Of a DNA stretch of 52,367 bases, positions 87 to 28,563 are shown piece by piece. Each line of letters starts with the position of its first letter. Position 1 is the stretch's first letter. Source of the stretch: Acidimicrobiales bacterium (GTDB lineage Bacteria > Actinomycetota > Acidimicrobiia > Acidimicrobiales > GCA-2861595); the NCBI GenBank assembly GCA_036262515.1, contig DATAIT010000116.1, positions 1-52,367 of the forward strand, in the 5' to 3' direction. Under the pieces are notes generated by a model that saw nothing but the letters and a program-made list of their open reading frames with translations, was not told the origin of the DNA and ran no database searches. The translations under genes were made by a program, and so were the position numbers.

Positions 87-785
87 ATGACCGCCACCAC
101 CACCGACCGCAAGAGCCGGGTCCTCGTCGTCGACGACGAGGAGAACATCACGTTCCTGCTCGATTCCGCCCTGCGCCACTTCGGCTTCGAGGTCAAGGTG
201 ACCGGCAACGGGCGCGACGCCCTGCGCGAGGTCGAGCGCTTCAACCCCGACGTGATGCTGCTCGACGTGATGCTGCCCGACCTCGACGGGTTCGAGATCG
301 TGCGGCGGCTGCGCACCGACGGCCAGAAGGTGCCGGTGCTCTTCCTCACCGCCCGCGACGCCGTCGACGACAAGGTGCGCGGCCTCACCCTCGGCGGCGA
401 CGACTACGTGACCAAGCCGTTCAGCCTGGAGGAGGTGGTCGCCCGCCTCCAGGTGATCCTGCGCCGCCAGGGCGTCGGCACGAGCTCCTCGCGCCTGGGC
501 CTCGCCGATCTCGAGATGGACGACGACGCCCACGTCGTGCGGCGGGCCGGTCAGGTCATCGACCTGTCGCCCACGGAGTACAACCTCCTGCGCTTCCTGC
601 TGCTCAACGCCGGCCGGGTGCTGTCGCGGAACCAGATCCTCGACCATGTCTGGCAGTACGACTTCGGCGGTCATGCCACGGTCGTCGAGACCTACGTCAG
701 CTACCTGCGCAAGAAGATCGACACGCTGGGGCCGCCCCTCATCCACACCGTGCGCGGCGTCGGCTACACCGCCCGGGTCTCCTGA
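87..785 (+). CDS. OmpR-family two-component response regulator
   Basis: This is a 232-residue DNA-binding response regulator. The receiver domain (about residues 10-122) has the acidic pair in VVDDEEN, the phosphoacceptor Asp60 in LLDVMLPDLDG and the conserved Lys in VTKPFSLEE. The C-terminal part (about 135-232) is a winged helix ending in HTVRGVGYTAR, typical of OmpR/PhoB proteins. ATG 87 was chosen over an in-frame upstream codon at 51 because the protein then begins just before the receiver fold and GAGGGTG lies a few bases upstream. The stop overlaps the start of the kinase gene by one base (TGATG), so the two are translationally coupled. It resembles MprA/TcrA-type actinobacterial regulators; the stimulus cannot be read from the sequence. 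Confidence 0.93.
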   Translation: MTATTTDRKSRVLVVDDEENITFLLDSALRHFGFEVKVTGNGRDALREVERFNPDVMLLDVMLPDLDGFEIVRRLRTDGQKVPVLFLTARDAVDDKVRGLTLGGDDYVTKPFSLEEVVARLQVILRRQGVGTSSSRLGLADLEMDDDAHVVRRAGQVIDLSPTEYNLLRFLLLNAGRVLSRNQILDHVWQYDFGGHATVVETYVSYLRKKIDTLGPPLIHTVRGVGYTARVS

Positions 786-9303: not shown

Positions 9304-10413
9304 TTACAGCGGTGCGGGCTCCTTGCGGCACGTGCTGTTGGGCAGCCCGGGGCCGCTCGGCCCACTGGCGATCGGCACGAACCCGTAGAGGGTGATGTTG
9401 GTCGCCTGCGAGCCCGAGCACAGGAAGCCGGGTCCGGTGGCGTCCACGCCGACGGCGCGCAGCACGTCACCGTAGGACGGCGACGTTGTCTTGGCCACGT
9501 TGTAGACCCAGCGGACGCCGAGGAATGTGGCGTTGCCGATGGTCGTCGTGTTGGGCTGCACGCCATTGATGTTCCCCAGCTTGGTCCCGGCCCGGAGATC
9601 GGGGACGACCAGGTTCTTCTGCGCCGTGAATTGTGCGAAGGAGTAGGGAAGAAGGGCGGTCGCCCGGTCGCCGGCGGCGACGAGGGTCGAGTCGTTCTCC
9701 TGGATCTCCGTCGACGGGCAGGCCGGGTTGTTGCTGGTGTTGCCGCCCAGGACCTTGCTGTCGAAGAACGACCGGGTGCCAGAGCCGGCCTGCGCCGTGT
9801 AGCGGACGATCACGCCGGGATCGCCTCCGACGGCGCTCCAGTTGTTGACCACGCAGCCGTAGATGTCCTTGAGGTTCTGCTGGGTCAGGTTCTTCGGGGC
9901 GCAGCCGACGGGGCCGGTGTCGGTGCCCGGGCAGGCCGTGTTCCGGAAGGCGTCCCAGCTGACCGCATCCTTGGCGTACGCGTAGAACTCGATGTTGGCC
10001 GGGTCCGATCCGCTCCGCCCTCGCGAGGAGCGGGCCATGTCGACGCAGCCGGTCGTGTCGTTGATGAGCGCCGTGATGCCGGACGACGATCCGTTCGGCG
10101 GCAGGTTGCCCGGGTTCGTGTAGCTGAAGGCGGCGCAGTTGGCGTCCCCCGGCACGGCGTAGGACCCGCCGGCGGCGAGCACCGGCGGCACGTTCTTGGC
10201 CGTGTCGATGGGCGCCGGGTTGAAGGTGGTGTTGACGTTGAACTTCTTCAGGATCTTCCCCATGACGTCGAACGTCGTGTCGGAGCCGACGGCTGCAAGG
10301 ACGTTCGAGGCCCCGTTCGGCGCCGGCACGGCGTGCGCAGGCGCTGTCGTCAGTCCGACCATCAGCCCCGCGGCCGCCAGGCCGAGTGCCGCGTGTTTCC
10401 CCAGTGAGCGCAT
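9304..10413 (-). CDS. pstS: Secreted PstS-like phosphate-binding protein
   Basis: This 369-residue protein has a classical signal peptide (hydrophobic core within residues 8-24, cleavage after APAHA) and no lipobox Cys, so it is predicted to be secreted or cell-wall associated. The PBP fold starts with VLAAVGSDTTFDVMGKIL, has the polar segment ARSSRGRSGSD, and carries the phosphate-loop-like YTAQAGSGTRSFF. Several Cys pairs suggest disulfides. AAGGGGAG lies just before the ATG. It is the last gene of a minus-strand cluster behind the sortase-like gene, with a 160-bp gap that may hold its own promoter. Ligand specificity is inferred from family and locus. Confidence 0.85.
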   Translation of the reverse strand: MRSLGKHAALGLAAAGLMVGLTTAPAHAVPAPNGASNVLAAVGSDTTFDVMGKILKKFNVNTTFNPAPIDTAKNVPPVLAAGGSYAVPGDANCAAFSYTNPGNLPPNGSSSGITALINDTTGCVDMARSSRGRSGSDPANIEFYAYAKDAVSWDAFRNTACPGTDTGPVGCAPKNLTQQNLKDIYGCVVNNWSAVGGDPGVIVRYTAQAGSGTRSFFDSKVLGGNTSNNPACPSTEIQENDSTLVAAGDRATALLPYSFAQFTAQKNLVVPDLRAGTKLGNINGVQPNTTTIGNATFLGVRWVYNVAKTTSPSYGDVLRAVGVDATGPGFLCSGSQATNITLYGFVPIASGPSGPGLPNSTCRKEPAPL

Positions 10414-10573: not shown

Positions 10574-11497
10574 TCACAGTGTGGCGGGCAGCGCGCCGGA
10601 GAAGCTGTCGAACACCACGTAGACGGCGGCGACGAGAATCGGCGTGGTGATGATCCAGCTGGGCCACAGCCTCCAGCGCCGGTAGAGCAGGGCGGCGCCG
10701 ACGGCCGCCGCCAGGAGGGCCTCGGACGCGAGCAACAGCGGTGTGGCGATCCTCCCGTCACCGTGCACGCCGTCCTCGACCTCGAGAAGATCCTTCGGCC
10801 GCCCGGCCGGCGCCGGGTTGGGGGTGCCCTGGAGCGACGCGGTGACCACCAGCCGCCGTGACGGCCGCAGCGGCGGATCGGACGTGACCAGGGTGAGCCG
10901 GTTGTCGTCCGTCGGGCCGATGACGTCGGGCTGGCCCGCCGCCGGCCTCGTCGTCGCCGTCACAGTGTAGAGGCTGGTCCCCTGCCCGGTCGTGACCCGG
11001 ATCCGGTCCCCGCCCCGCAGGTGCCCGATGCGGGCGAACGGCGCGCCGTACGTGGAGCGGCGGGCCGCCACCACCGCGTTGCCCGGCTGGCCGGGAAGAG
11101 GTCGGGTCCGCAGGTGACCAGGCGCCCGCTTCAGCACGTTCGGCGCCGTCCCCTCGAGCACGACCTGGCGGACGTGGAGTCTCGGTATCTCCAGGAGGGC
11201 GACCGGCGTGCCTTCCCGGATCGCGCCACCGACCGGTGTGCGGCCCGCTTCGAGGTCAGAGCGCAGTGTCGCGAACAAGATGGTCTGGTCGCGGGCCTGG
11301 GCGACGTCGGAGACGACCAGGAGGAAGACCAGGTAGCCGGCGACGACCAGTGCGAGCGTCGTGAGACCTCGGCCGAGGGCTCGGACGAGCCCGGCCTGCG
11401 CCCGCCCGCTGACACGCAGACTGGGCAATGGCACCGGCTGGACCTCGCCCAGCGCAGGGCCTCCAGGGGGTCGCCGCCGCGTCGGGTCGCCCGACAT
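10574..11497 (-). CDS. Degenerate sortase-like membrane protein (catalytic His and Cys replaced)
   Basis: This 307-residue protein has one N-terminal transmembrane helix (about 46-63), a sortase-fold domain (about 95-222), and two C-terminal helices (about 252-272 and 280-297). The framework is recognisable: EIPRLHVRQVVLEG, PLPGQPGNAVVAARRSTYGA and RLTLVTSDPPLRPSRRLVV. Active sortases carry His in the AGHR(S/T) position and Cys in the TLxTC position; here these are Arg146 and Ser206, while the conserved Arg (214/215) remains. The genomic codons are CGC and TCC, so no ordinary misreading of the frame explains it. It should not perform transpeptidation by the normal mechanism. The gene starts 26 bp after the anchored PstS-like gene, in the same operon. 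Confidence 0.8.
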   Translation of the reverse strand: MSGDPTRRRPPGGPALGEVQPVPLPSLRVSGRAQAGLVRALGRGLTTLALVVAGYLVFLLVVSDVAQARDQTILFATLRSDLEAGRTPVGGAIREGTPVALLEIPRLHVRQVVLEGTAPNVLKRAPGHLRTRPLPGQPGNAVVAARRSTYGAPFARIGHLRGGDRIRVTTGQGTSLYTVTATTRPAAGQPDVIGPTDDNRLTLVTSDPPLRPSRRLVVTASLQGTPNPAPAGRPKDLLEVEDGVHGDGRIATPLLLASEALLAAAVGAALLYRRWRLWPSWIITTPILVAAVYVVFDSFSGALPATL

Positions 11498-14841: not shown

Positions 14842-15965
14842 CCCTCCGTACCCTCGACGTCCGGGCATCCACGGCGACGACGTTGTCCGCGTCGTCGAAG
14901 GAGGAGATCGCCGTCCGGCCCCGCACGCTCAAACGCTCCGACGTCGGGGAGCTGGCGGGTACGGCGTTGTCGGCACTGTGCCTCACCTGGCTGATCTACA
15001 CCCGCCTCACCCCCCTCCAGGGTGGACTCGGCTTCGTTCTCGTCTGGTACCTGGCCTTCCTCGCCAGCTACTGGCTCGTGGTGCGCGACCAGCGCGGCCG
15101 GATGGCGGCGAGCGATCGGCTGGCCGCGGTGGTGATCACCACCGTGGGCGTCGGTCTCCTCGTGCCCCTGCTGCTGGTGGTGGGCTACACGGTCTTCCGT
15201 GGGTACTCCGCCCTGCGACCGGTCTTCTTCACCCGCACGCAGGCCACCGTGGGCCCGCTGAGCGGCCCGACCGAGGGCGGCGGCGCGCACGCCATCGTCG
15301 GCACGCTCGAGCAGGTCGGCCTGGCCATGCTCGTCTCCGTGCCGCTCGGCCTGGCCACCGCTCTGTACCTGAACGAGGTGGGGGGCCGCCTGGCCCGACC
15401 GGTCCGCCTCATCGTCGACGCAATGAGCGCCATCCCGTCCATCGTCGCCGGCCTCTTCGTCTACGCCCTGGTCGTGCTCTCGCTCGGCCTCGGCCAGTCG
15501 GGTTTCGCCGCCTCGCTGGCCCTCGTCGTGCTGATGCTGCCCACCGTCACCCGGACGACCGAGGTGGTCCTTCGCCTCGTCCCCGGCAGCTTGCGCGAGG
15601 CGTCACTCGCACTCGGTGCCAGCGAATGGCGCACGGCCATGCGGGTCGTCCTGCCCACGGCCCGGACCGGCCTCGTCACCGCCGTCATCCTCGGGATCGC
15701 CCGGGCCGTGGGCGAGACGGCTCCCCTCCTGCTCACCGCCGGCGGCTCGGCCAGGATGCATCTGAACCCCTTCTCCGGCAGCCAGGACGCGCTCCCGCTC
15801 TTCGTGTACCGGCTGGTCCAGTTCCCCCAGCCGGCCCAGATCGACCGGGCCTGGACGGGCGCACTCGTGCTGCTCGCCGTGGTGCTGGTCCTCTTCGTGG
15901 CGGCCAGGGTCATCGGCAGCCGAGGCCCCGGTGGCGGCGGCCGGCTCCGCCGCCGCCCCAGGTGA
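14838..15965 (+). CDS. pstA: Phosphate ABC transporter permease PstA (system 1), N-terminally extended
   Basis: This 375-residue permease starts at the ATGA overlap with pstC. The conserved core (from about residue 95) has the coupling segment [21 protein letters not shown] and [18 protein letters not shown], typical of PstA. It is about 75 residues longer than usual PstA proteins. The extra N-terminal part adds two predicted transmembrane helices (around [13 protein letters not shown] and [18 protein letters not shown]) before the normal first helix. The purpose of the extension is unknown. pstB follows 13 bp downstream. Confidence 0.92.
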
Positions 15966-15978
15966 AAGGAGCGCGATC

Positions 15979-16830
15979 GTGAGCGCGACCAAGCAGGCCC
16001 TGCCCTACGGGCAGGGATCGCCGGCCGGAGCCGAGCGCGATGGGCGACAAGGTGCCTCGGCGCCGGCGGAGCTCACGGTGCGGGGCGTGAGCGCGTGGTT
16101 CGGTACCCACAAGGTGCTGGACCGCGTGTCGCTCGACATCCCTGCGCGCCGGGTGACGGCCCTCATCGGCCCGTCGGGGTGCGGGAAGTCGACGTTCCTG
16201 CGGGTGCTGAACCGGATGCACGAGCTCGTGCCCGGCTCGTCTCTGGCCGGCTCGGTGGAGCTCGACGGGGTCGACATCTACCGGGGGGAACGCTCGGCGA
16301 CCGAGACACGCCGCCGCATCGGCATGGTGTTCCAGAAGCCGAACCCGTTCCCCGCCACGACGGTCGCCGACAACGTGGTGGCCGGGCTGAAGCTGTCGGG
16401 GGTCAAGGTGCGCGACAGCGACGAGATCGTGGAGAACAGCCTCAGGCAAGCGGGTCTGTGGAACGAGGTGAAGAACCGCCTGCGCGACTCCGGCGGGGCA
16501 CTCTCGGGCGGGCAGCAGCAGCGGTTGTGCATCGCCCGCGCCCTGGCCGTGCGGCCGCAGGTGCTGCTCATGGACGAACCCTGCTCGGCTCTCGACCCCA
16601 CTTCGACCCGCCGGATCGAGGAGACCATCGCCGAGCTCTCCGAGCGGGTGACCATCGTGATCGTCACGCACAACATGCAACAGGCGCAGCGGGTCTCCAC
16701 GGACTGCGCCTTCTTCCTGTCGGCCGAGGGCGAGCCCGGAAGCATCGTGGAGTCCGGGCCGACCGACAAGCTGTTCAGCGACCCCGAGGATGCTCGCACT
16801 CTCGACTACGTCCAGGGTCGCTTCGGATGA
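15979..16830 (+). CDS. pstB: Phosphate ABC transporter ATPase PstB (system 1)
   Basis: This 283-residue cytoplasmic ATPase powers the PstC/PstA channel. It has Walker [10 protein letters not shown], the PstB-typical [15 protein letters not shown] (Q loop), the ABC signature [15 protein letters not shown], Walker [14 protein letters not shown] and the switch His in [15 protein letters not shown] 15979 is chosen because AAAGGAG lies just upstream and an earlier in-frame start would add only linker residues. The stop overlaps the start of the anchored PstS gene by 4 bp. Confidence 0.95.
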
Positions 16831-18524
16831 GCGCGGAGCGTGCACGCCGCGGAATGCGGCGGTCGACGCCGCGGCTTCGCCGCGGCCGCTCGTGGTCGCG
16901 CCTCCTGCCGGGCGCCGCCCTGGTGGCGAGCTCCATGATCGTGCAAGCCCGGCCTGCGTCGGCGGCGGTCGAGGTGAAGGGGGCCGGTTCCACGTGGAGC
17001 TCGATCGCCGTCGGGCAGTGGCAGGCCGACGTGGCTCTCCAGGGGCTCAACATCAACTACCAGGCGTCAGGCTCGACCACGGGCCGCAAGTTCTATTACA
17101 CGGGAACGTCGGACTTCGCGGTGTCCGAGATCCCCTTCCAGAGCGCCTATGTCGGCACGGGTCAGAACGTCACCACCGACGAGGTGGCCTTGGCGGCGGC
17201 GCGCCCGTACGTGTACCTGCCCATCGTCGCCGGCGGCACCTCGTTCCTCTACAACCTCTCGGTGAACGGCCAGCGGGTGACCGATCTCAAGCTGTCACCG
17301 ACCACCATCGCCAAGATCTTCACCGGCGTGATCAAGGACTGGAGCGCTCCGGAGATCACCGCCGACGACGGGCGGACCTTCCCGGCCGAGCCGATCGTGC
17401 CGGTCGTCCGCTCCGACGGGTCGGGTACCTCGGCGCAGTTCACGGCGTGGATGGCCAAGGTGACACCCGGGCTCTGGAGCGACTTCTGCGTCAAGGTGGG
17501 ACTGGGGGCGTCCTGCCCGCCGACGTCGCAGTACCCGCTGTTCGACGGGGCCAAGGCCCAGCAGCTCTCGGACGGCGTGGCCAACTACGTGAAGGCGGCG
17601 TACGGCAAGGGCTCGATCACGTATGTCGAGTACGGGTACGCCATCGCCGGGACGCCGTTCCCGGTGGCCTCGGTGCTCAACGCAGCCGGCTACTTCACCC
17701 AGCCCACGGCCGAGAACGTGGCGATCGCCCTGCTGAAGGCCCGGATCAAACCCGACCGGACGCAGGTCCTCGACGACGTGTACACCAACCCCGACCCCCG
17801 GGCCTACCCGGTGTCGAGCTACAGCTACATGATCGCCCCGACGACCACGGCCGCGCCCTTCACAACGGAGAAGGGGACGGCGCTCGGGAAGTTCATCCTG
17901 TACTTCCTGTGCACGGGCCAGCAGACGGCGAAGAGGCTCGGCTACTCGCCGCTGCCGAGGAACCTGGTGGAGTTCGGTTTCGACGCCGTCACCCAGATTC
18001 CCGGTGCCCCGGCTCCTCCCGCCATCGGCGACTGCGCCAATCCCACGATCACCGGGTCGTTCGCGCCCGAGAACGTGCCGCCGCCGCCTGCGACGGACAA
18101 GAAGGCCGGCGGGGCCACGGGCGACACCGGCGCGTCGGGTCCGGCCGCGTCCGCGTCGGCCGCGTCGGGCGGCGGACCGAGTGCGGGCGGGACGAACGCG
18201 GCAGCGGCCGGGGCCACCGGCACCACGCGTCCCGGAACGGGCGCGCGCACGGCCAAGGCTGCGGGGAGCGGATCTGCCGCAACCGCCGGGCCGGGTGCCG
18301 GAGGTCCGGCAACCCGCGATGCCGCCGTCGGCCTGGAGGGTGAGCTGGCGGCGCCGGTCGGCGAGAGGCGGGACGACAGTGCCGTCGAGGTGAACGGCGC
18401 CCCGATCAGCGTCGACGGCACCGGGCCCGGCGGGACGCTCCCGTTCGTGATGGCGGCCCTGACCGTGCTGCTGGCCGTCTTCCTGCCCGCCCTGGTGGGC
18501 ATGCGGCGACCCCGGAGCGATTGA
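16827..18524 (+). CDS. pstS: Membrane-anchored PstS-like phosphate-binding protein (system 1)
   Basis: This 565-residue protein has an Arg-rich N-terminus and signal peptide ([21 protein letters not shown]). The PstS domain (about 47-400) contains [32 protein letters not shown], the peptide [19 protein letters not shown] and the phosphate loop [12 protein letters not shown] linker of about 110 residues rich in Ala, Gly, Thr, Ser and Pro follows, then a C-terminal helix ([20 protein letters not shown]) with a basic end. Most actinobacterial PstS proteins are lipoproteins; this one lacks a lipobox and uses a C-terminal anchor. It is the fourth gene of pstC-pstA-pstB-pstS, an unusual order, coupled to pstB by an ATGA overlap. 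Confidence 0.9.
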
Positions 18525-18615: not shown

Positions 18616-19302
18616 TCAGGGGGCGCCGGCGTTGGTCCCGTCGGTCGTGTTGGACACGAAGCTGATGCGCCGGGCGATCTCTACGGCGTGGTCGCCGAGA
18701 CGTTCGTAGAAGCGGCCGAGCAGGGCAAGGTCGATGGCGGGCGCCGTGCCCACCGTGCCGATCAGCAGCATCGCGAAGAGCTCGTGCTGCAACGCGTCGA
18801 GATCGTCGTCGGAGGACTCCACCTGGTGGCCGGCCGCGTCGTCCTCGGCGTCGAAGGCGGACAGGGCGGCGCTGAACTGGCTCGCCGCCACCGTGGCCAT
18901 CTCCACCACGAGGGTGCGCAGGGCGGGGCTGAAGGCGTCGGGCTCCCGCTCGAAGCAGGCCGAGCGGGCGATGTGGGCCACCAGGTCCCCGGACCTCGAG
19001 ACGGCCTCGGTGACGCGCACGAGGGCCACCAGGTGGCGCAGATCGATCGCCATGGGCTGCTGGGTGGCGATCAACTCGTACACCGCCAGCTCCACGTCCC
19101 GCGCCCGCGCCGACCACCCGGCCGTGCGGGCGTCGATGCGGGAGCCGGCGTCGCAGTCCCGCCGCAACCAGACCTCCGTCGCTTCGGCGATGGAACGGCC
19201 CACCTCGTGCCCGATGGCCACGACTGCCGATCGGAGGGAGTCGATGCGCTGGTGGAAATGGCGCCGCCCGTGTCCGTCGCCGGCGGGGATCGGCTTGGTC
19301 AC
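18616..19302 (-). CDS. phoU: PhoU-like protein (second of tandem pair)
   Basis: This 228-residue helical protein belongs to the PhoU family, which connects Pst activity with the phosphate sensor kinase and damps the Pho response. Typical features are the two three-helix bundles with ELIATQQPMAIDLRHLVALV, VTEAVSRSGDLVAHIAR and LLGRFYERLGDHAVEIARR, whose acidic clusters bind metal. GTG 19302 overlaps the stop of the preceding phoU by 4 bp (GTGA), so the two are coupled and may act as a pair. It is convergent with the pstC-pstS operon; the 91 bp between them show no clear terminator. Confidence 0.88.
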   Translation of the reverse strand: MTKPIPAGDGHGRRHFHQRIDSLRSAVVAIGHEVGRSIAEATEVWLRRDCDAGSRIDARTAGWSARARDVELAVYELIATQQPMAIDLRHLVALVRVTEAVSRSGDLVAHIARSACFEREPDAFSPALRTLVVEMATVAASQFSAALSAFDAEDDAAGHQVESSDDDLDALQHELFAMLLIGTVGTAPAIDLALLGRFYERLGDHAVEIARRISFVSNTTDGTNAGAP

Positions 19303-19937
19303 AGCTCGCCCGTCACCAGGTAGCGGACCCGTTCCCCGACCAGCACGGCGTGATCGGCCACCCGCTCGAAGTACCGGCCGACGAGCACCAGCTCGATGGT
19401 GGTGGCCAGCGCCAGTGGCTCGGCGAACAGCTCTCCGAGGAGCCGGCGGTGCAGGTCGTCGAGCCGGTCGTCCCACACGTCGAGGGCCTCGGCCTGGGCG
19501 ACGTCGCGGGACACGTAGGCTTCGATCGCACCCTGGAACAGCTGGTGGGCCTCCCGGGCCATGCGCCCGATGAGCGCACCGACCCGCACCGGCAGGGGGC
19601 TGCGGGGACGGGCGGCGAAGGCGGCGACGTGCTTGACCAGCTTCGCCGATCGCTCCAGCTCGTGGGTGAGGCGGATGACGGTGACCAGCAGGCGCAGGTC
19701 GCCTGCCGCCGGTTGCTGGCGGGCGAGCACTTCGAATGCTCGGGACTCGCACCGCCGGGTGCCGGCGTCGAGCGTCTGGTGACGGTCGACGACGTCCGCT
19801 GCCACGTCGTGCTCTCCGGTCGAGAGCGCCTCGGCCGTGGCGCCGAGAGCCTCGCAGACCTCTGCGGCCAGCAGGACGACCTGGCTGTCCAGCTCCGCCA
19901 GCTCACGGTCGAACGCTGTCCTGGTGGGCTCACCCAT
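19299..19937 (-). CDS. phoU: PhoU-like protein (first of tandem pair)
   Basis: This 212-residue PhoU protein has the signatures REAHQLF, EVLARQQPAAGDLRLLVTVI, THELERSAKLVKHVA and VGRYFERVADHAVLVGERVR. It starts at ATG 19937, eleven bases behind a TACCTT hexamer (19949-19954 on the minus strand), and a two-unit PHO box lies at 19993-20014. It is divergent from the SenX3-like kinase gene and would be expected to interact with that kinase or with a PstB. An upstream extension of the frame is possible but reads into the regulatory region, so it is not accepted. Confidence 0.88.
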   Translation of the reverse strand: MGEPTRTAFDRELAELDSQVVLLAAEVCEALGATAEALSTGEHDVAADVVDRHQTLDAGTRRCESRAFEVLARQQPAAGDLRLLVTVIRLTHELERSAKLVKHVAAFAARPRSPLPVRVGALIGRMAREAHQLFQGAIEAYVSRDVAQAEALDVWDDRLDDLHRRLLGELFAEPLALATTIELVLVGRYFERVADHAVLVGERVRYLVTGEL

Positions 19938-19992
19938 GACGTCAGGTAAAGGTAGGGCTTCGATGGTGGCGCGACGGGCCGAAGAGGCGTCC

Positions 19993-20014
19993 TCGAGGTG
20001 AACGAGGGGTGAAC
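19993..20014 (-). promoter_or_regulatory. PHO box between phoU and the phosphate sensor kinase
   Basis: Two adjacent 11-bp units on the minus strand both begin GTTCACC (20014-20004 and 20003-19993). They lie about 40 bases upstream of the TACCTT hexamer of the phoU pair, a distance similar to that at ppk. The divergent kinase promoter is also close by, so the box may feed back on both. Confidence 0.7.
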
Positions 20015-20062
20015 TCTGCGGCTGGCGGGCGCCAGAGCTTGCCGTCGCCGACCGACGCTCCA

Positions 20063-20068
20063 TAAGGT
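20063..20068 (+). promoter_or_regulatory. TAAGGT -10 hexamer, leaderless-type start of the sensor kinase
   Basis: TAAGGT is followed after six bases by GTG 20075. No ribosome site is present, which fits a leaderless mRNA. Confidence 0.5.
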
Positions 20069-20074
20069 CGTCTC

Positions 20075-21304
20075 GTGCAGCTCCTGTACGGCTGTCTCGC
20101 CGTGCTGGCCGGCGCGGCATCGGCGTGCCTCTGGGTTCGGCATTCCCGCCAGGCGCGGGCCCTCCGGGACCAGCTGCTCGCCATCGCCACGCGCCTGGAG
20201 CCGGCGGACGAGGAGCCTGCCGACCGCGATGCGGTCGGGTACCTCTCGCGGGCGGTGACGGTCGCCATCGATCGGTCGCTCGATGCCATGCACCTCGCCC
20301 GCACGCTGGGCGGGGCGCTCGAGGCGCTTCCCCTGGGCGTCGTCGTCACCGGCGGCGACGGCCGGGTGCTCTTCCGTAACGAGTCGGCCGACGAGCTTCT
20401 CGGTACGCGTGCCTCCGACGCCCTGGCGTGGAGTGCGCTGTCGGACCTGCTGGCCGATGCCGGACGGGGTGATGCGGGCACCCGTCCCCTCGATCTCTAT
20501 GGACCACCGCGCCGCACGCTCTCGCTGACCGCCGTCCCACTGGACAACGGCGCGGCGGCCGTCACCGTCGAGGACGTCTCCGATCGGAAGCGCCTGGACG
20601 CCGTTCGGCGCGACTTCGTCGCCAACGTGAGCCACGAGCTGAAGACGCCGGTGGCTGCGCTCGGCCTGCTGGCCGAGACCCTCGTGGCCGAAGAGGACCA
20701 CGTGGTCGTCCAGCGTCTGGCCGAACGGATGCAGGACGAGGCGTTCCGGGTGGCCCGGATCATCGACGACCTGCTCGACCTGAGCCGCCTCGAGGCCGAT
20801 GAGACCACCCGTCCGGAGACGGTGCGCGTGCACGAGGTGGTCGCACAGGCGGTGGAGCAGGTCCTGCCGTCGGCCGGGTTGCGATCAGTGCGGTTGTCCG
20901 TGGTGCCGGTTCCACGGTCGTGGACGGTACGCGGCCACCGGCGCCAGCTCGTCTCGGCGATGACGAACCTGCTGGAGAACGCCGTGAAGTACTCGGACGA
21001 GGGGTCGTCCGTCGAGGTGACCCCCACCACCGACGGACGGAACGTCGAGCTCGCCGTCAGGGACCGCGGGATAGGCATCCCGTCCCGCGACCTCGACCGC
21101 ATCTTCGAACGCTTCTACCGGGTCGACCGCGGCCGGGGCCGGGATACCGGCGGTACCGGGCTCGGGCTGTCCATCGTGCGGCACATCGCGTCGAACCACG
21201 GCGGCGACGTCGCGGTGGAGTCGGTCGAGGGCGAAGGGTCGACGTTCACGCTCCGCCTGCCCGCAGAACCCGGTCCCGTCGGCGTCGTGGCCGACGCCGG
21301 CTGA
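20075..21304 (+). CDS. senX3: SenX3/PhoR-like phosphate sensor histidine kinase
   Basis: This 409-residue kinase has one N-terminal transmembrane helix (LLYGCLAVLAGAASACLWV), a PAS domain (about 85-165, with ALEALPLGVVVTGGDGRVLF), the phosphoacceptor His187 in FVANVSHELKTPVAALGLLAE, and an ATPase domain with an N box, RDRGIGIPSRDLDRIF and GGTGLGLSIVRHIASNHGG. A short membrane part plus PAS is the SenX3/PhoR layout; these kinases sense phosphate through Pst and PhoU rather than by direct binding. The start is GTG 20075 behind TAAGGT. The response regulator gene follows after 13 bp, and a phoU gene after that. Confidence 0.92.
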   Translation: MQLLYGCLAVLAGAASACLWVRHSRQARALRDQLLAIATRLEPADEEPADRDAVGYLSRAVTVAIDRSLDAMHLARTLGGALEALPLGVVVTGGDGRVLFRNESADELLGTRASDALAWSALSDLLADAGRGDAGTRPLDLYGPPRRTLSLTAVPLDNGAAAVTVEDVSDRKRLDAVRRDFVANVSHELKTPVAALGLLAETLVAEEDHVVVQRLAERMQDEAFRVARIIDDLLDLSRLEADETTRPETVRVHEVVAQAVEQVLPSAGLRSVRLSVVPVPRSWTVRGHRRQLVSAMTNLLENAVKYSDEGSSVEVTPTTDGRNVELAVRDRGIGIPSRDLDRIFERFYRVDRGRGRDTGGTGLGLSIVRHIASNHGGDVAVESVEGEGSTFTLRLPAEPGPVGVVADAG

Positions 21305-21317
21305 CGTCAGGAGGCGC

Positions 21318-22028
21318 ATGTCGGACATCCACCCAACGGTTCTGATCGTGGAGGACGAGGAGTCCTTCGTCGAGGCGCTCATGCTCGGGCTGAAGCGCGA
21401 GGGCTTCCTGGTCCACGTCGCCCGTGACGGCATTACTGCGCTCGCGTTGTTCGACGCCGTGAAACCTGATCTGGTGCTGCTCGACGTCATGCTGCCGAGC
21501 CTCTCGGGTGTCGACGTCTGTCGAGAGATCCGCAGCCGGTCCCGGACGCCGATCATCATGGTCACGGCCAAGAGCTCCGAGATCGACACGGTGGTCGGCC
21601 TCGAGGTGGGAGCCGACGATTACGTCACGAAGCCCTACCGGCTGCGCGAGCTGGTCGCCCGCATGCGGGCCGTCCTTCGCCGCGCACCCCGCCAGGACGC
21701 GAACCCCGGCTCGGGCGCCGTGGTCGAGGTCGGCGACGTGCGCCTGGATCCGGAACGCCACGAGGTGACCGTGCGCGGGGATCACGTCGCCTTGCCCCTG
21801 AAGGAGTTCGACCTGCTCGAGATCCTTCTCGACAATGCCGGCCGGGTCCTCACCCGCGACCTGCTCATCGACCGGGTATGGGGCTCGAACTACGTGGGGG
21901 ACACCAAGACGCTCGACGTCCACATCAAGCGCCTCCGCTCGAAGCTCGAGCACGACCCCTCGAATCCTCAGCGGATCATCACGATCCGCGGCCTCGGCTA
22001 CCGGTACGAGAAGGCCTCCAGCAGCTGA
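21318..22028 (+). CDS. regX3: RegX3/PhoP-like phosphate response regulator
   Basis: This 236-residue OmpR-family regulator has acidic residues in IVEDEESFVEAL, the phosphoacceptor Asp56 in LLDVMLPSLSGVDVC, Lys in YVTKPYRLRELVARM, and a winged helix with LKEFDLLEILLDNAGRVLTR and ITIRGLGYRYEK. AGGAGG lies six bases before ATG 21318. It is most likely the protein that binds the tandem 11-bp GTTCANNNNNN repeats in front of pstC, phoU, pstS and ppk, since family members bind such sites as tandem dimers (inference). It is co-transcribed with the kinase. Confidence 0.93.
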   Translation: MSDIHPTVLIVEDEESFVEALMLGLKREGFLVHVARDGITALALFDAVKPDLVLLDVMLPSLSGVDVCREIRSRSRTPIIMVTAKSSEIDTVVGLEVGADDYVTKPYRLRELVARMRAVLRRAPRQDANPGSGAVVEVGDVRLDPERHEVTVRGDHVALPLKEFDLLEILLDNAGRVLTRDLLIDRVWGSNYVGDTKTLDVHIKRLRSKLEHDPSNPQRIITIRGLGYRYEKASSS

Positions 22029-22834: not shown

Positions 22835-23731
22835 TCAGCCGAAGCGACCGGTGATGTAGTCCTCGGTGCGACGGTCGCTCGGCGCAGTGAAGATCTTCTC
22901 GGTCCGGTCGAACTCAACGAGCACGCCGGTGCGCTCCCGGCCTTCGTCGCTGACCTCGGCCGTGAAGAAGGCGGTCCGGTCCGAGACGCGGGCCGCCTGC
23001 TGCATGTTGTGGGTCACGATCACGATCGTGTAATCACGCTTGAGCTCGATCATGAGCTCCTCGATGCGGTTCGTGGCCAGCGGGTCGAGGGCTGAGCACG
23101 GCTCGTCCATCAGGATCACGTCCGGTCGCACGGCGATGCACCGGGCGATGCACAGACGCTGCTGCTGCCCACCGGAGAGGGACAATGCGCTCTTCTTCAC
23201 CTTGTCCTTGACCTCGTCCCACAGCGCCGCCTTGCGCAGCGACTCCTCCACCAGGTCGTCCATGTCGGCCGTGCTGTGGCCGTTGACCCGCGGGCCGAAG
23301 GCGACGTTGTCGTAGATGGACTTCGGGAAGGGATTGGGCTTCTGGAACACCATGCCGATCCGCCGCCGGACCTCGATGGCGTCGACGTCGGGACCATAGA
23401 GGTCCTGGTCGTGGTAAGTGATCCGGCCGGTGACCTGAGTGCCGGGAATCAGCTCGTTCATCCGGTTCATGCAGCGGATGAACGTGCTCTTCCCGCACCC
23501 CGAGGGGCCGATGACGGCGGTGATCTGGTTGCCGTGGACGTTCATGCTGACGTCCCGGAGGGCGAGGAAGCTGCCGTAGTGGAAGTTCAGCCGCTCGACC
23601 CGGAAGACGGGCTCCGTCTCCGTGGCGGGATCGACGCGGGAGGAGACGGGCACCTCCGGCCGCCGGGTCGGACCCGCCTCACGTTCCCGCTCGACGGTCG
23701 GGTCGCTCACCGTCGTGGGAAGGTCGGTCAC
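22835..23731 (-). CDS. pstB: Phosphate ABC transporter ATPase PstB (system 2)
   Basis: This 298-residue ATPase has Walker [30 protein letters not shown], signature [15 protein letters not shown], Walker [14 protein letters not shown] and His switch [12 protein letters not shown]. It ends in the PstB-typical YITGRFG. GTG 23731 was chosen because GGAGGA sits five bases upstream; the longer frame starts at TTG 23755. The first 45 residues are a variable charged extension. It closes the pstS-pstC-pstA-pstB operon, 48 bp after pstA, and is convergent with phoU. Confidence 0.94.
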
Positions 23732-23779
23732 GTTGTCCTCCACTGGCTCGTTCAACTGACAAAACGCTAACGGGTCGGC

Positions 23780-24679
23780 TCAGCGCACCGTGAACCGGGC
23801 CGACACGACGCGGGCCACGATGGTGAGCACGAGCACCAGCACGATGAGGGTGAGAGCCGCCCCCCACGCCCGTTCCTGCGGGCCGGCGAAGGGTAGCTGG
23901 GCATTGCGGAAGATCTGCGTGGAGAGCGCCGTGTTGGCGCCGTCCTGGAGGCGGGCGTTGAACGACCGGGCGGCGCCGATGGTGAACAGGAGCGGCGCCG
24001 TCTCGCCGGCGGCCCGGGCCACGGCCAGGAGGCAGCCGCTGACCACGCCCGGCAGGGCGGCCGGGAGCACGACGGTGAGAATGGTGCGGGAGCGGCGGGC
24101 GCCCAGCGCGTAGGACGCCTCGCGCAGGTCGTTGGGCACGAGGCGGAGCATGCTCTCGCTCGATCTGATCACGACCGGGAGCATCAGGGCGCCGAGGGCG
24201 AGTGCACCGGCGAAGCCGGACTGGCCGAAGCGGAGGACCCAGACGGTGTAGACGAAGAGGCCCATGACGATCGACGGCACCCCGGCCATGACGTCGCTCA
24301 GGAAGCGGATCACGGCCGTGAGGCGCCCGCCCCTGCCGTACTCGGCCAGGTGGATGGCGGCGAGGACGCCGAGCGGGATGGCCATGAGGGCGGCCGCACC
24401 GGTGATCAGGATCGTGCCCGCCACGGCCGGACCCATGCCGGGCCCCGGCCGGCGGGACGAGATGGGGATGTCCTCGGTGAGGAAGCGCAGATCGACCACC
24501 TGCGCCCCCTTCTGGATCACGTACCCGATCACGAAGAGCAGAGGGACCACGGCAACGACCACCGAACACCAGATCAGCGCGGTCGCCACCGCGTTGCGCG
24601 CCCGGCGGGAGCGACGGACGGTACGGACGCCCAGGTCCGTGCCGAGCGGCGGGGCCGGTGGTGTGACGGTGAGCGTCAC
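23780..24679 (-). CDS. pstA: Phosphate ABC transporter permease PstA (system 2)
   Basis: This 299-residue permease is of normal PstA length. It has a first helix at about 32-54, the domain start GPAVAGTILITGAAALMAIP, FLSDVMAGVPSIVMGLFVY, the coupling segment REASYALGARRSRTILTVVLP and AVARAAGETAPLLFTIGAA. GTG 24679 overlaps the pstC stop by 4 bp (GTGA). It works with the adjacent PstC and PstB and the lipoprotein PstS. Confidence 0.94.
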   Translation of the reverse strand: MTLTVTPPAPPLGTDLGVRTVRRSRRARNAVATALIWCSVVVAVVPLLFVIGYVIQKGAQVVDLRFLTEDIPISSRRPGPGMGPAVAGTILITGAAALMAIPLGVLAAIHLAEYGRGGRLTAVIRFLSDVMAGVPSIVMGLFVYTVWVLRFGQSGFAGALALGALMLPVVIRSSESMLRLVPNDLREASYALGARRSRTILTVVLPAALPGVVSGCLLAVARAAGETAPLLFTIGAARSFNARLQDGANTALSTQIFRNAQLPFAGPQERAWGAALTLIVLVLVLTIVARVVSARFTVR

Positions 24680-25626
24680 CGCGTGACCTCGGCTGCGGAC
24701 AGCCGCCGGACGACGGTTTGGGCTGCGATGTTCACCGCCACGGTGACGATGAACAGCACCACGCCGAGCCCGATGAGTGCGGACCGGTGCACCCCGCCCG
24801 CCTCCCCGAACTGGTTGGCGATGACTGCGGCCATGGCGTCGCCGGAGCGGAGGAGGTGGGCCGTGATCTGTGGGCTCGAACCGATGACGAGGGCGGCGGC
24901 GATTGTCTCGCCCATGGCCCGGCCGAGGCCTAGCATCACCGCCCCGATCATCCCGGCGCGGCTGTGCGGGAACACGGCCTGGCGAACCATCTCCCACCTC
25001 GTCGCGCCGAGGGCCAGAGCCGCCTCCTTCTGGACGGTCGGCACCGTGTTGAACACTTCGCGCACGAGCGACGTGATGATGGGCGTGATCATCAACGCCA
25101 GCACCAGGCCGGCGGTGAGGTAACTCTTGCCATTGACCGGGCCGCCGAGCAGCGTGCCCACGAGGGGTACCCGATCGCTGACGCGGCTGACCTTGTCGTA
25201 CACGCCCACCATCGCCGGAGCGAGCACCAGGAGGCCCCAGAGGCCGAACACGACGGAAGGCACCGCGGCCAGGAGGTCGACGGCGTAGCTCACGGGCCGC
25301 CGGAGCCCCTTCGGTGCCACCTCGGTGAGGAACAAGGCGATGCCGATGCTCACCGGGACGGCGATCACGAGAGCGATGACCGAGATGACGAGCGTGCCGT
25401 AGATGAACGGGAGGGCGCCGAAGGAGCCGACGTTGGGCGCCCACCGGTCGGAGGTGAGAAATCCGATGCCTTCGGACCGGAAGGCCGGCATCGCCTCCCG
25501 TGTCGTCGACACGAGGATCAGGGCCAGGACCACGAGGACCACCAGCCCGGATGCGAAGGTCACCGTGCGGAAGGCACGGTCGGTGAACGCCGGTCTGGCG
25601 GAGCGGAACGGGGATGTCGTGGTCAC
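24676..25626 (-). CDS. pstC: Phosphate ABC transporter permease PstC (system 2)
   Basis: This 316-residue permease has a first helix at about 24-43, FIYGTLVISVIALVIAVPVS, YAVDLLAAVPSVVFGLWGLL, the coupling segment KEAALALGATRWEMVRQAVFP and GLGRAMGETIAAALVIG. It starts at GTG 25626, 65 bp behind the pstS stop, and overlaps pstA by 4 bp. It is only distantly similar to the system 1 PstC by eye outside the coupling region, so the two sets are not a recent duplication. Confidence 0.94.
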   Translation of the reverse strand: MTTTSPFRSARPAFTDRAFRTVTFASGLVVLVVLALILVSTTREAMPAFRSEGIGFLTSDRWAPNVGSFGALPFIYGTLVISVIALVIAVPVSIGIALFLTEVAPKGLRRPVSYAVDLLAAVPSVVFGLWGLLVLAPAMVGVYDKVSRVSDRVPLVGTLLGGPVNGKSYLTAGLVLALMITPIITSLVREVFNTVPTVQKEAALALGATRWEMVRQAVFPHSRAGMIGAVMLGLGRAMGETIAAALVIGSSPQITAHLLRSGDAMAAVIANQFGEAGGVHRSALIGLGVVLFIVTVAVNIAAQTVVRRLSAAEVTR

Positions 25627-25691
25627 GGGAGTCGAGTCGGCGGCGGCGCCGGGCCGTCGGGAGGCGGCGTCCCGGCGATCCGCTCAGCGTT

Positions 25692-26792
25692 TCAGGGCTG
25701 GGCGATGTTGTCGAGTTGGGCGAGCGCCTTCTCCCGGAGGGTCTTGGGCAGTGGCGCGTAGTCGATGTCCGGGGCCAGATCCTGGCCGTCGTTGAGCAGG
25801 AAGGTCACGAAGGACTTGAATGCCGCGGCCTTCGCCTTGTCGACCTGGTTCTTGTACACCAGGATCCACGTCGGCGCCGTGATGGGGTAGGCCTCGTCTC
25901 CGTCGGCGTTCAGCGGGTTGTAGCTGAGGTCGGCGTTGGGCGTCACGCTCTCCACCGCCGCCGTGGCCCCGGCGACGTCGGCCTTCACGAACTTGCCCGC
26001 CTTGTTCTTCAGGTCGGCGATCTGGAGCTGGCTCGCCTTGGCGTCCGACAGGTCCACGTAGCCGATGGCGCCTGAAGTGCTCTTCACGGTCTGCGCGACA
26101 CCCGAGTTGCCGTTGCCGCCCTGGGTGTCGGCCGGCCATTCGACCGTCGATCCCGAGTTCAGCTTCCAGGCGTCCGGTGCGGCGGCCGTGAGGTACTTCG
26201 TGAAGTTCTCCGTGGTGCCCGAGCTGTCCGAGCGGTGGACCACGGTGATCGCCGTCGACGGCAGCTTGGCATCGGCGTTGAGCGCCTTGATGGCGGGGTC
26301 GTCCCACGTCTTGATCTCCCGCTGGAAGATCCTCGCCACCACCGGGGCGTCGAGCTTGAGGCCGCTCACATCGGCCAGGTTGTACGACATGGTGATGGGG
26401 GCGGCAATGGTCGGGATGTAGAGGAACTCGCCACCCTTGAACTTGGGAACGTCCTCGGGCTTGACCAGACCGTCGGAGCCGGCGAAGTCCACGACCATGT
26501 CCTGCAGCTCCTGTCGGCCCTTGCCGGACCCGCCCCCGCCGTAGTTGATCGTCACACCCGGCTGCTCCTCGGCGTACGCGGCGATGACCTCCTCGTAGAA
26601 GGCCTGCGGAAACGTGGCCCCGGAGGCGTTGAGGGTTCCCGAGAGCTGGGCCTCGGTGGTCTCGGTCGCAGAGGAGTCCGTGGTGTCGCCCGCCTCGTCG
26701 TCGCTGTCGCTGCTACACGCGGCGCCGAGCAGTGCCATGACCACGAGCGATGCCACGAGCAGGCGTGCCCGCCGAGGACCGGAACTCATCAT
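25692..26792 (-). CDS. pstS: Lipoprotein phosphate-binding protein PstS (system 2)
   Basis: This 366-residue protein has a lipoprotein signal ending in LLGAACSSD, a Thr/Ser/Asp-rich linker (about 28-48) and a classical PstS domain with LNASGATFPQAFYEEVIAAY, INYGGGGSGKGRQELQ, DFAGSDGLVKPED, VVHRSDSSGTTENFTKYL (phosphate loop) and STSGAIGYVDLSDA. It delivers phosphate to PstC/PstA outside the membrane. Two consecutive ATG codons (26792 and 26789) can start it, with AAGGGG about ten bases upstream. A three-unit PHO box and a TAGGGT hexamer precede it, so it should be induced in low phosphate. Confidence 0.95.
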   Translation of the reverse strand: MMSSGPRRARLLVASLVVMALLGAACSSDSDDEAGDTTDSSATETTEAQLSGTLNASGATFPQAFYEEVIAAYAEEQPGVTINYGGGGSGKGRQELQDMVVDFAGSDGLVKPEDVPKFKGGEFLYIPTIAAPITMSYNLADVSGLKLDAPVVARIFQREIKTWDDPAIKALNADAKLPSTAITVVHRSDSSGTTENFTKYLTAAAPDAWKLNSGSTVEWPADTQGGNGNSGVAQTVKSTSGAIGYVDLSDAKASQLQIADLKNKAGKFVKADVAGATAAVESVTPNADLSYNPLNADGDEAYPITAPTWILVYKNQVDKAKAAAFKSFVTFLLNDGQDLAPDIDYAPLPKTLREKALAQLDNIAQP

Positions 26793-26829
26793 GGGTGGAA
26801 CCCCTTCGTGTCGATGTCCGTCGTCGCGC

Positions 26830-26835
26830 ACCCTA
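26830..26835 (-). promoter_or_regulatory. TAGGGT -10 hexamer of the pstS-pstC-pstA-pstB operon
   Basis: On the minus strand TAGGGT lies 27 bases downstream of the PHO box and 37 bases upstream of ATG 26792. This leaves a short leader with a ribosome site, unlike the leaderless starts elsewhere in the window. Confidence 0.55.
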
Positions 26836-26862
26836 GAAGCGGCGCCTGACGAAGGAGCCACC

Positions 26863-26895
26863 GGAAGGTTGACGGCAGGTGAACGCGGACTGAAC
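26863..26895 (-). promoter_or_regulatory. Three-unit PHO box upstream of pstS
   Basis: Read on the minus strand, three adjacent 11-bp units begin GTTCAG, GTTCAC and GTCAAC (26895-26885, 26884-26874, 26873-26863). This is the clearest match with the known direct-repeat structure of PhoP/RegX3 sites. It sits immediately upstream of the expected -35 position. The box also lies about 70 bases upstream of the divergent exopolyphosphatase promoter. Confidence 0.8.
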
Positions 26896-26962
26896 ATCGT
26901 GCAACGTGCAGGCGTCGTCAGGGCGTGGGAGCCGGGTGTCGGGTCAGGCACCTGGACGCCTC

Positions 26963-26968
26963 TACAGT
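26963..26968 (+). promoter_or_regulatory. TACAGT -10 hexamer, leaderless-type start of ppx
   Basis: TACAGT is followed after eight bases by GTG 26977. No ribosome site is seen. The PHO box of the divergent pstS operon is nearby and might influence this promoter. Confidence 0.55.
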
Positions 26969-26976
26969 GCACGGCA

Positions 26977-28563
26977 GTGCGCATCGCTGCTCTCGACCTC
27001 GGCAGCAACTCGTTCCACCTCCTCGTGGCCGACGCCCATCCGGACGGTTCGTTCGACCGCTTGTTCCGGGAGAAGGAGATGCTGCGCCTCGGCGACGTCG
27101 TGGCCCGCCACGGCCGCCTCACCGACGAGGCCTGTGACCACGCTCTCGACGCGGTGAGGCGGTTCCGGTCCCTCGCCGAAGGAGCGGGCGCCGACGTGTT
27201 CGTGGCGTGCGCCACCAGTGCCATCCGCGAGGCGGATAACGGCGGTGACCTGGTGGAGCGGATCGCGCGCGACACCGGCGTGCGGGTGCGGGTCATAAGC
27301 GGCGCCGAGGAGGCCGCCCTCATCTTCCGGGCGGTCCAGGCCAGCGTGCTCATCGACCCGGGGCCGGCTCTTTGCCTCGACCTGGGAGGCGGCAGCCTCG
27401 AGGTGATGGTCGGTGACTCCACCGAGCTCGCGTGGGCCACAAGCCTGAAGCTCGGCGTGGCCCGGCTGACCGCGGAACTGGTGAAGGGCGACCCGGTCGA
27501 CCCCCTCCGCCCTGGTGACCAACGCCGGCTGCGCAAGCGCATCGAAGCCGTCCTCGGCCCCGTCGCCGATGCGGTGGCCCCGTTCCAACCGAAGCTGCTC
27601 GTGGGCACGAGCGGCACGCTGTGCGATCTGGCCCGCATGGCGGTGGCCGAGGAGACGGGCGCCGTTCCGATCTCCGTGAACCAGCACCGCGTCAGCCGCA
27701 CCGCGGTGGAGAAGCTCCACGAGACGCTCGTGGGTCTCCCACTGGCCGGGCGCAGGCGCATCCCGGGCCTCGACGTGCGCCGGGCCGAGCTGGCTCCGGC
27801 GGGGTCGCTCCTGGCCGTCGTCGCCATGGAGCTGTTCGGCTTCGACGAGCTGGTCGTGGGCACCTGGGCACTGCGGGAGGGCATGGTCCTGGCCGAGATG
27901 CTCCGGCACACGGGTGCCGACCTGTCCGGCGACCCGCGGGTGATGCGGGCCGCGTCGGTGCTCGATCTCTGCCAGCGGTGCGGCTGGCGAGAGGTCCACT
28001 CACGGCAGGTGGCCCGTGTCGCCACCTCGCTGTTCGACCAGACTGCCTCGCTGCACGGCTTGGGCGAGAACCACAGGGAGCTGCTCGAGCACGCGGCATT
28101 CCTGCACGACATCGGCGAGCACGTCTCGGGCGAGTCGCATCACAAGCACACGGCCTACCTGATCCAGCACGGCCAGCTCCGCGGCTTCAGCCCGCACGAG
28201 GTCGGCATGCTGGCCACGATCGGCCGCTACCACCGCCAGGGCGAGCCGAAGACGTCATTCGAGCCGTTCGCGGCCATGGACGACGACGCCCGAGCAGAGG
28301 TGCGGGTCCTCACCGCCCTCCTCCAGATCGCCGACGGCCTCGACCGCGGGCACGCCGGCACCGTGGAGGACGTGCAGGTCACCACCGACGACGACCGCAT
28401 CGTGCTCCTGCTGTGCGCCACCGGCGACGTCGAGCTCGATCTCTGGGGCGCTCGCCGCAAGCGATCGCTTTTCGAGCAGGTGTTCGGTCGCCGGCTCGAG
28501 CTCACCGTACCCGGCGAGGCGGCGCCGGACCTCGCTGCCTGGAGCACCCGGCGCGGCGCCTGA
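26977..28563 (+). CDS. ppx: Ppx/GppA-type exopolyphosphatase with C-terminal HD domain
   Basis: This 528-residue protein has an ASKHA-fold Ppx/GppA domain (about 1-310) with AALDLGSNSFHLLVAD at the N-terminus, ATSAIREADNG, ISGAEEAALIFRAV, the phosphate-binding LDLGGGSLEVMV and LLVGTSGTLCDLARM. The C-terminal part (about 325-490) is an HD-type helical domain with LLEHAAFLHDIGEHVSG and LLQIADGLDRGH. Such enzymes release phosphate from polyphosphate and often also hydrolyse pppGpp. The gene is divergent from the PHO-controlled pstS operon, with Ppk1 further right, so polyphosphate breakdown and synthesis genes are both present. GTG 26977 gives the canonical start at the first motif. Confidence 0.92.
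   Translation: MRIAALDLGSNSFHLLVADAHPDGSFDRLFREKEMLRLGDVVARHGRLTDEACDHALDAVRRFRSLAEGAGADVFVACATSAIREADNGGDLVERIARDTGVRVRVISGAEEAALIFRAVQASVLIDPGPALCLDLGGGSLEVMVGDSTELAWATSLKLGVARLTAELVKGDPVDPLRPGDQRRLRKRIEAVLGPVADAVAPFQPKLLVGTSGTLCDLARMAVAEETGAVPISVNQHRVSRTAVEKLHETLVGLPLAGRRRIPGLDVRRAELAPAGSLLAVVAMELFGFDELVVGTWALREGMVLAEMLRHTGADLSGDPRVMRAASVLDLCQRCGWREVHSRQVARVATSLFDQTASLHGLGENHRELLEHAAFLHDIGEHVSGESHHKHTAYLIQHGQLRGFSPHEVGMLATIGRYHRQGEPKTSFEPFAAMDDDARAEVRVLTALLQIADGLDRGHAGTVEDVQVTTDDDRIVLLLCATGDVELDLWGARRKRSLFEQVFGRRLELTVPGEAAPDLAAWSTRRGA

Follow-up and report, generated by a model that had tools for sequence, protein, structure and literature searches.

A catalytically dead relative of class E sortases beside pst genes in Actinomycetota: a candidate non-cleaving scaffold

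Relation to known sortases and phosphate-binding proteins

Among described proteins, the closest to the sortase-like protein studied here are the class E sortases, exemplified by S. coelicolor SrtE1 and S. avermitilis SrtE (PDB 5go5 and 5go6), with which it has in common the fold, the sequence profile, an N-terminal transmembrane (TM) helix and the motifs GPGH..T.LPGQ.GN and YG.PF. Its neighbor, here called P2, has the fold of PstS (M. tuberculosis PstS3, 4lvq; E. coli PstS in PstSCAB, 9k3x), but is set apart by an N-terminal beta domain, a tail TM anchor and the loss of the SG(T/S) phosphate loop, as discussed below. A third known arrangement is the sortase-substrate gene pair; one subtype of our loci (subtype B) likewise has an LPxTG gene overlapping the sortase gene at start/stop, but with a dead sortase and with tails that frequently follow a G-R-x5-[RK]-P-like pattern, unlike other sorting tails in the DNA examined. 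In iRhoms, the rhomboid pseudoproteases, and in other pseudopeptidases, a membrane fold recognizes anchored clients without cutting them; the protein described here does not have a common ancestry with iRhoms, and clients and cellular role differ. With respect to the active enzymes, the catalytic Arg of sortases contacts the peptide, and Tyr229 of SrtE1 is the pocket residue that reads the Ala of LAxTG (PMC5148588). Five sortases of Actinoplanes missouriensis have been characterized, none of them apparently pst-linked, and the word "phosphate" is absent from that text (PMC13251363). In the open-access literature searched, with most subscription journals outside it, we found no description of a pseudosortase family, nor of a sortase in pst loci or with a Pst transporter.

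The window, i.e. the whole stretch of DNA analyzed here (52,367 nucleotides from an Acidimicrobiales bacterium), carries this gene in a pst locus (Table 1). An earlier note on this DNA, written from the letters alone, had held that the sortase fold and its flanking motifs are well preserved, and this was borne out by three kinds of evidence: 1) the protein matched Pfam Sortase (PF04203) with an E value of 2e-23 and 82.9 bits vs. a cut-off of 26.6, which places it in the sortase superfamily; 2) its top PDB sequence matches were 5go6 and 5go5; 3) an AlphaFold2 (AF2) model built with 20 relatives (pLDDT 89.4, pTM 0.81) displayed a sortase domain between a long N-terminal TM helix and a C-terminal TM hairpin, and matched SrtE and SrtD structures in Foldseek (5go6, TMt 0.78, rmsd 2.2 Å). 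The best NCBIfam match was class_E_sortase (NF033747, E = 8.5e-28), with 97.6 bits against a curated cut-off of 160, which the window protein therefore does not reach for membership in class E. We conclude that the protein has kept the sortase fold and is nearest to class E, but is not an active sortase by the features tested. It also departs from class E in having two extra C-terminal TM helices, a feature seen as well in many intact Acidimicrobiales-type sortases, and its last residues are LPATL. As a separate observation, intact class E-like sortases of the order (L002 in the window genome, at C123:25079-26089, and L083-L107) have two extra C-terminal TM helices and end in LLPS or LLPA, a three-TM plan unlike that of the single-TM SrtE1.

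Table 1. Features of the pseudosortase locus (window nucleotide positions, or residues of the named protein).
Feature	Position	Strand	Evidence or remark
Secreted PstS-family protein, no TM anchor	9304..10413	-	PBP_like_2 1.1e-7; downstream of pseudosortase, same orientation
Pseudosortase ORF, 307 aa, intact	10574..11497	-	ATG to stop
Codon TCC, Ser206 (catalytic Cys position)	10880..10882	-	Sequence
Codon CGC, Arg146 (catalytic His position)	11060..11062	-	Sequence
Pseudosortase topology	TM helix (AF2 helix 31-83); sortase domain ~97-223; C-terminal TM helices 248-274 and 277-300		Cytoplasmic N-terminus
P2, tail-anchored pseudo-PstS, 714 aa	11524..13668	-	PBP_like_2 4e-9; AF2; Foldseek
P2 layout	PstS fold ~195-565; TM ~678-699		N-terminal beta-rich domain before the PstS fold; disordered linker before the TM
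pstC, divergent from P2	13852..14841	+	
pstA, start approximate	14913..15965	+	
pstB	15931..16830	+	
Tail-anchored PstS, intact loop RSDGSGTS	16827..18524	+	PBP_like_2 1.1e-33

Loss of the active site across one clade

In the alignment, the His-region motif of the window protein is GNAVVAARRSTYGAPF where intact sortases have GN..IAGHRTTYGAPF, and the Cys-region motif is TLVTSDPP where intact sortases have TLTTCHP. Because of these aligned motifs, the catalytic His is assigned to Arg146 and the catalytic Cys to Ser206, as the earlier note had read them, and both codons are plain in the DNA. The third catalytic residue, the conserved Arg said to remain, is indeed present in the window protein as Arg215. 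The three further sortase loci of the window genome have His and Cys intact.

A collection scan with a check of these residues set apart from the intact sortases a group of relatives in which His is replaced by Arg and Cys by Ser or Gly (L006-L009, L018, L040 and L054); further members came from profile searches of 198 genomes from the order and 396 from the phylum. Of the sortases in loci with enough flank, 28 were without both residues and 58 had both, with no intermediate. A tree was built from 30 dead and 40 live sequences after masking of the two catalytic columns; all dead sequences fell on one side of a single branch (100/99), the root not being fixed and the bootstrap not fully settled in this tree. 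The members extend across Actinomycetota, including Amycolatopsis coloradensis and genomes beyond the order and class of the window. All 30 are without both catalytic residues, and no close orthologue with intact His and Cys was found. The clade thus consists of pseudoenzymes, and the idea of a retained pseudoenzyme with an undamaged frame, as put forward for the window protein with its open 307-aa ORF, holds for the clade as a whole. A side observation concerns L193, from genome G009 of the window genome's own genus: its pseudosortase is of the other subtype and its pst locus has a different arrangement, which suggests that whole pst loci may have been replaced or transferred.

Whether the substituted residues are conserved in orthologues was answered differently for the two sites. 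Arg at the His position is found in 28 of 30 members (Lys and Ala in one each; His in 40/40 intact sortases), while Ser at the Cys position is not conserved, with Ala in 14, Ser in 13 and Gly, Thr and Val in one each (Cys in 40/40 intact sortases). Another Arg, residue 79 just past the first TM helix, is fixed in 29/30 members and variable in live sortases. As for the residues that line the groove, the catalytic Arg is retained in only 8/30 of the clade, and the site of the class E pocket Tyr, which is Leu129 in the window protein, has Tyr in 1/30 vs. 29/40 live sortases. Because of the near absence of this Tyr and the infrequent retention of the catalytic Arg, any binding of a sorting signal by the groove may depart from the usual mode.

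The pst neighborhood and the pseudo-PstS partner

The earlier note had described the adjoining gene product as a membrane-anchored, PstS-like protein devoid of a sorting signal. P2 is in fact tail-anchored, and it is a degenerate PstS in addition. Its AF2 model has a PstS fold in Foldseek (4lvq PstS3, TMt 0.81), with the phosphate-binding loop RSDGSGT replaced by RSESNADT. This loop, RSDGSG(T/S), is missing in 20/20 P2 homologues, while SG(T/S) is kept in the 6 tail-anchored PstS proteins compared, which come from the same kind of loci; the mate of the pseudosortase is therefore a pseudo-PstS rather than an ordinary phosphate-binding protein. In the pseudosortase locus, the role of functional phosphate receptor would fall to the tail-anchored PstS encoded after pstB. 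No LPxTG-like signal was found in the window's own P2 or PstS, nor one before the C-terminal TM helix in the P2 C-termini of related loci, and no conserved motif ahead of the TM helix was recognized by eye in these C-termini. On a separate note, P2 homologues have four nearly invariant Cys (residues 148, 154, 187 and 215 of the window P2), which possibly form structural disulfides.

The same association recurs in other genomes. P2, the dead sortase and pst genes are found together in several gene orders, with P2 in every complete locus; in some loci there is a single run of pstC-pstA-pstS, followed by P2, the dead sortase and pstB. A homologue of the secreted PstS-family protein encoded downstream of the pseudosortase is also found in many related loci. 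PstA or PstC was encoded within 8 kb of 19/28 dead sortases vs. 0/58 intact ones, counts that come from related genomes and are not independent trials. For the other 9 of the 28, relatives of P2, PstB or PstS adjoin, or the permease genes are farther than 8 kb away or beyond the available stretch; L007, L018 and L054, for instance, have P2 with no Pst permease within the available DNA. Members of the clade are thus all beside genes for phosphate import or phosphate-binding proteins.

The genome samples led to a similar picture. In the phylum sample, strong P2 and strong dead-sortase matches occurred in the same 9/396 genomes, all nine of which had contributed to the models, the informative part being that no genome had just one partner. 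In the order sample of 198 genomes, ten P2 genomes and G163 of which were outside model building, both partners were found in 17. The exceptions were at contig edges: in G185, which has P2, the sortase gene is truncated where the contig ends, and in G163 a 3.7-kb contig carries the dead sortase together with pstB. In G062, P2 and the dead sortase are on separate short contigs.

We also observed that the window harbors a second, ordinary pst set (PstB, PstA, PstC, PstS), with genes for PhoU, a PhoR-like and a PhoB-like protein between the two sets (second set and regulators: 22835-28112 on the minus strand and 18619-22028). There is no sortase in this second set, and the pseudosortase therefore marks only one of the two pst systems.

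Gene overlap provided a further tie between the partners. In 15 of 17 adjacent same-strand pairs, the stop of P2 and the start of the dead sortase overlap by 4 nt (ATGA, GTGA or TTGA), the start codons in these counts being candidates read from the DNA rather than mapped starts; the exceptions are the window, with a 26-nt gap between P2 and sortase, and L007. In subtype B, other genes sit between P2 and the dead sortase, and the gene directly upstream of the latter encodes a secreted LPxTG-tailed protein in 11 loci, two of them near-copies, with the 4-nt overlap in 10/11. These upstream proteins have the features of sortase substrates, namely an LPxTG-like motif (LPATG, LPLTG, LPVTG, LPMTG, LPRTG, LPETG, LARTG, VPVTG or IPRTG), a hydrophobic stretch and a basic tail, often with the pattern G-R-x5-[RK]-P, and none of them matched a Pfam family. 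In the other DNA examined (1.19 Mb), there were only about six LPxTG-like tails, none with this pattern. From the overlaps, we infer that P2 or the LPxTG gene is likely translationally coupled with the dead sortase. The tie to a PstS-like partner proposed earlier is hence strongly supported by co-occurrence and start/stop overlap. As an additional observation, genes between P2 and the dead sortase in L185, L186, L187, L189, L190, L191, L193, L196, L236, L146 and L150 encode secreted proteins that match no Pfam family, contain a repeated C.GDSA...YRV.S..VP-like region and are often LPxTG-tailed.

A possible non-cleaving scaffold and its alternatives

We surmise, with a probability of about 0.5, that the pseudosortase is a non-cleaving receptor or scaffold for C-terminally anchored Pst envelope proteins. 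Given the dead active site, the wide retention, the pst-side location and the anchored neighbor, it probably holds partners rather than cutting them; in addition, the coupling of a dead sortase with either a sorting-signal client, as in subtype B, or a tail-anchored pseudo-PstS, as in the window, favors a scaffold that does not cleave. We speculate that the pseudosortase, having lost the abilities of cleavage and transfer, would contact a partner through the old sortase groove and its own membrane helices, binding the linker and TM helix that make up the partner's C-terminal anchor region; this partner would be P2 in the window subtype and the LPxTG-tailed proteins in the other. The partner would be kept uncut at the membrane beside the PstCAB transporter, and the pseudosortase might serve as a docking scaffold or assembly factor on the extracytoplasmic side of phosphate uptake, perhaps working like the catalytically dead iRhoms, whose substrate-recognizing fold acts apart from catalysis. 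Docking or peptide binding, as raised in the earlier note, is a putative activity of the pseudosortase. Counting against this reading are the loss of the pocket Tyr and often of the catalytic Arg, the absence of an LPxTG motif from the window P2, the gap in place of an overlap in the window pair, and the loci (L007, L018 and L054) in which no Pst permease was found within the available DNA.

Tentatively, and with distinctly less assurance, we would extend this reading to a Pst accessory module, in which an ex-sortase and an ex-phosphate receptor, both with their active sites lost, form a coupled membrane scaffold; the pseudosortase would hold the C-terminal tails of envelope proteins (LPxTG-like in one subtype) non-covalently and leave them uncut at the transporter, with retention taking the place of covalent wall attachment. 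If true, substrate recognition by sortases would be separable from catalysis, and two uncharacterized subunits or assembly factors would be added to the Pst systems of monoderm Actinomycetota. For annotation, a protein with Arg at the His position, no Cys and adjoining pst genes should not be filed as an active sortase. Because one carrier, Amycolatopsis coloradensis DSM 44225 (L009), is cultured, the idea is testable.

Among the alternatives, it seems unlikely to us that the pseudosortase is a decoy or regulator of a live class E sortase, steering which envelope proteins are covalently anchored under phosphate limitation by binding either LPxTG/LAxTG proteins or the live enzyme. Such a role would be in keeping with the live class E three-TM sortases of the window genome (L002) and several other carrier genomes, and with the subtype B coupling between the dead gene and LPxTG proteins; however, no LPxTG gene was found in the window-subtype locus, live sortase genes were never near pst permeases in the loci examined, and throughout the phylum the dead gene goes with P2. 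We also doubt that the P2-pseudosortase pair is a signaling element, one that reads an extracytoplasmic cue (a cell-wall phosphate polymer, a phospholipid or another anion, perhaps via two fixed Arg) and passes it on to PhoU/PhoR via the Pst complex. That both partners are retained despite a lost catalytic or ligand site, that new Arg residues are fixed and that phoU, a phoR-like kinase and a phoB-like regulator are in the same window would fit, but there is neither a sensor domain nor coupling to a kinase gene, and conserved phoR/phoU adjacency was not observed in an unsystematic reading of the loci. Somewhat less probable again is a lipid- or glycan-binding membrane anchor unrelated to the C-termini of partners, with the sortase domain as a rigid spacer between TM helices; it would account for a structural core and TM hairpin that are conserved while groove residues (the Tyr229 equivalent and the catalytic Arg) drift, but would leave unexplained why, in 25/28 neighboring pairs, the gene overlaps at start/stop with one for a tail-anchored or LPxTG protein.

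Residual catalysis with Ser206 as nucleophile is very improbable. Although Ser is found in the window protein and in 12 other members, the Cys position is occupied by Ala, Gly or Val in 16/30 and by Thr in one, and none has the His. An Arg that is constant at the His position, next to a Cys position free to vary, points to a new constraint unrelated to catalysis and speaks against a Ser enzyme, which we rejected since Ser is not conserved in the clade. Finally, even though a single base change would restore His or Cys at each codon, a sequencing error at the two codons or a locally decayed copy can be dismissed, because the same losses, in open frames and from many assemblies, are found in 29 further sequences that form one clade with the window protein.
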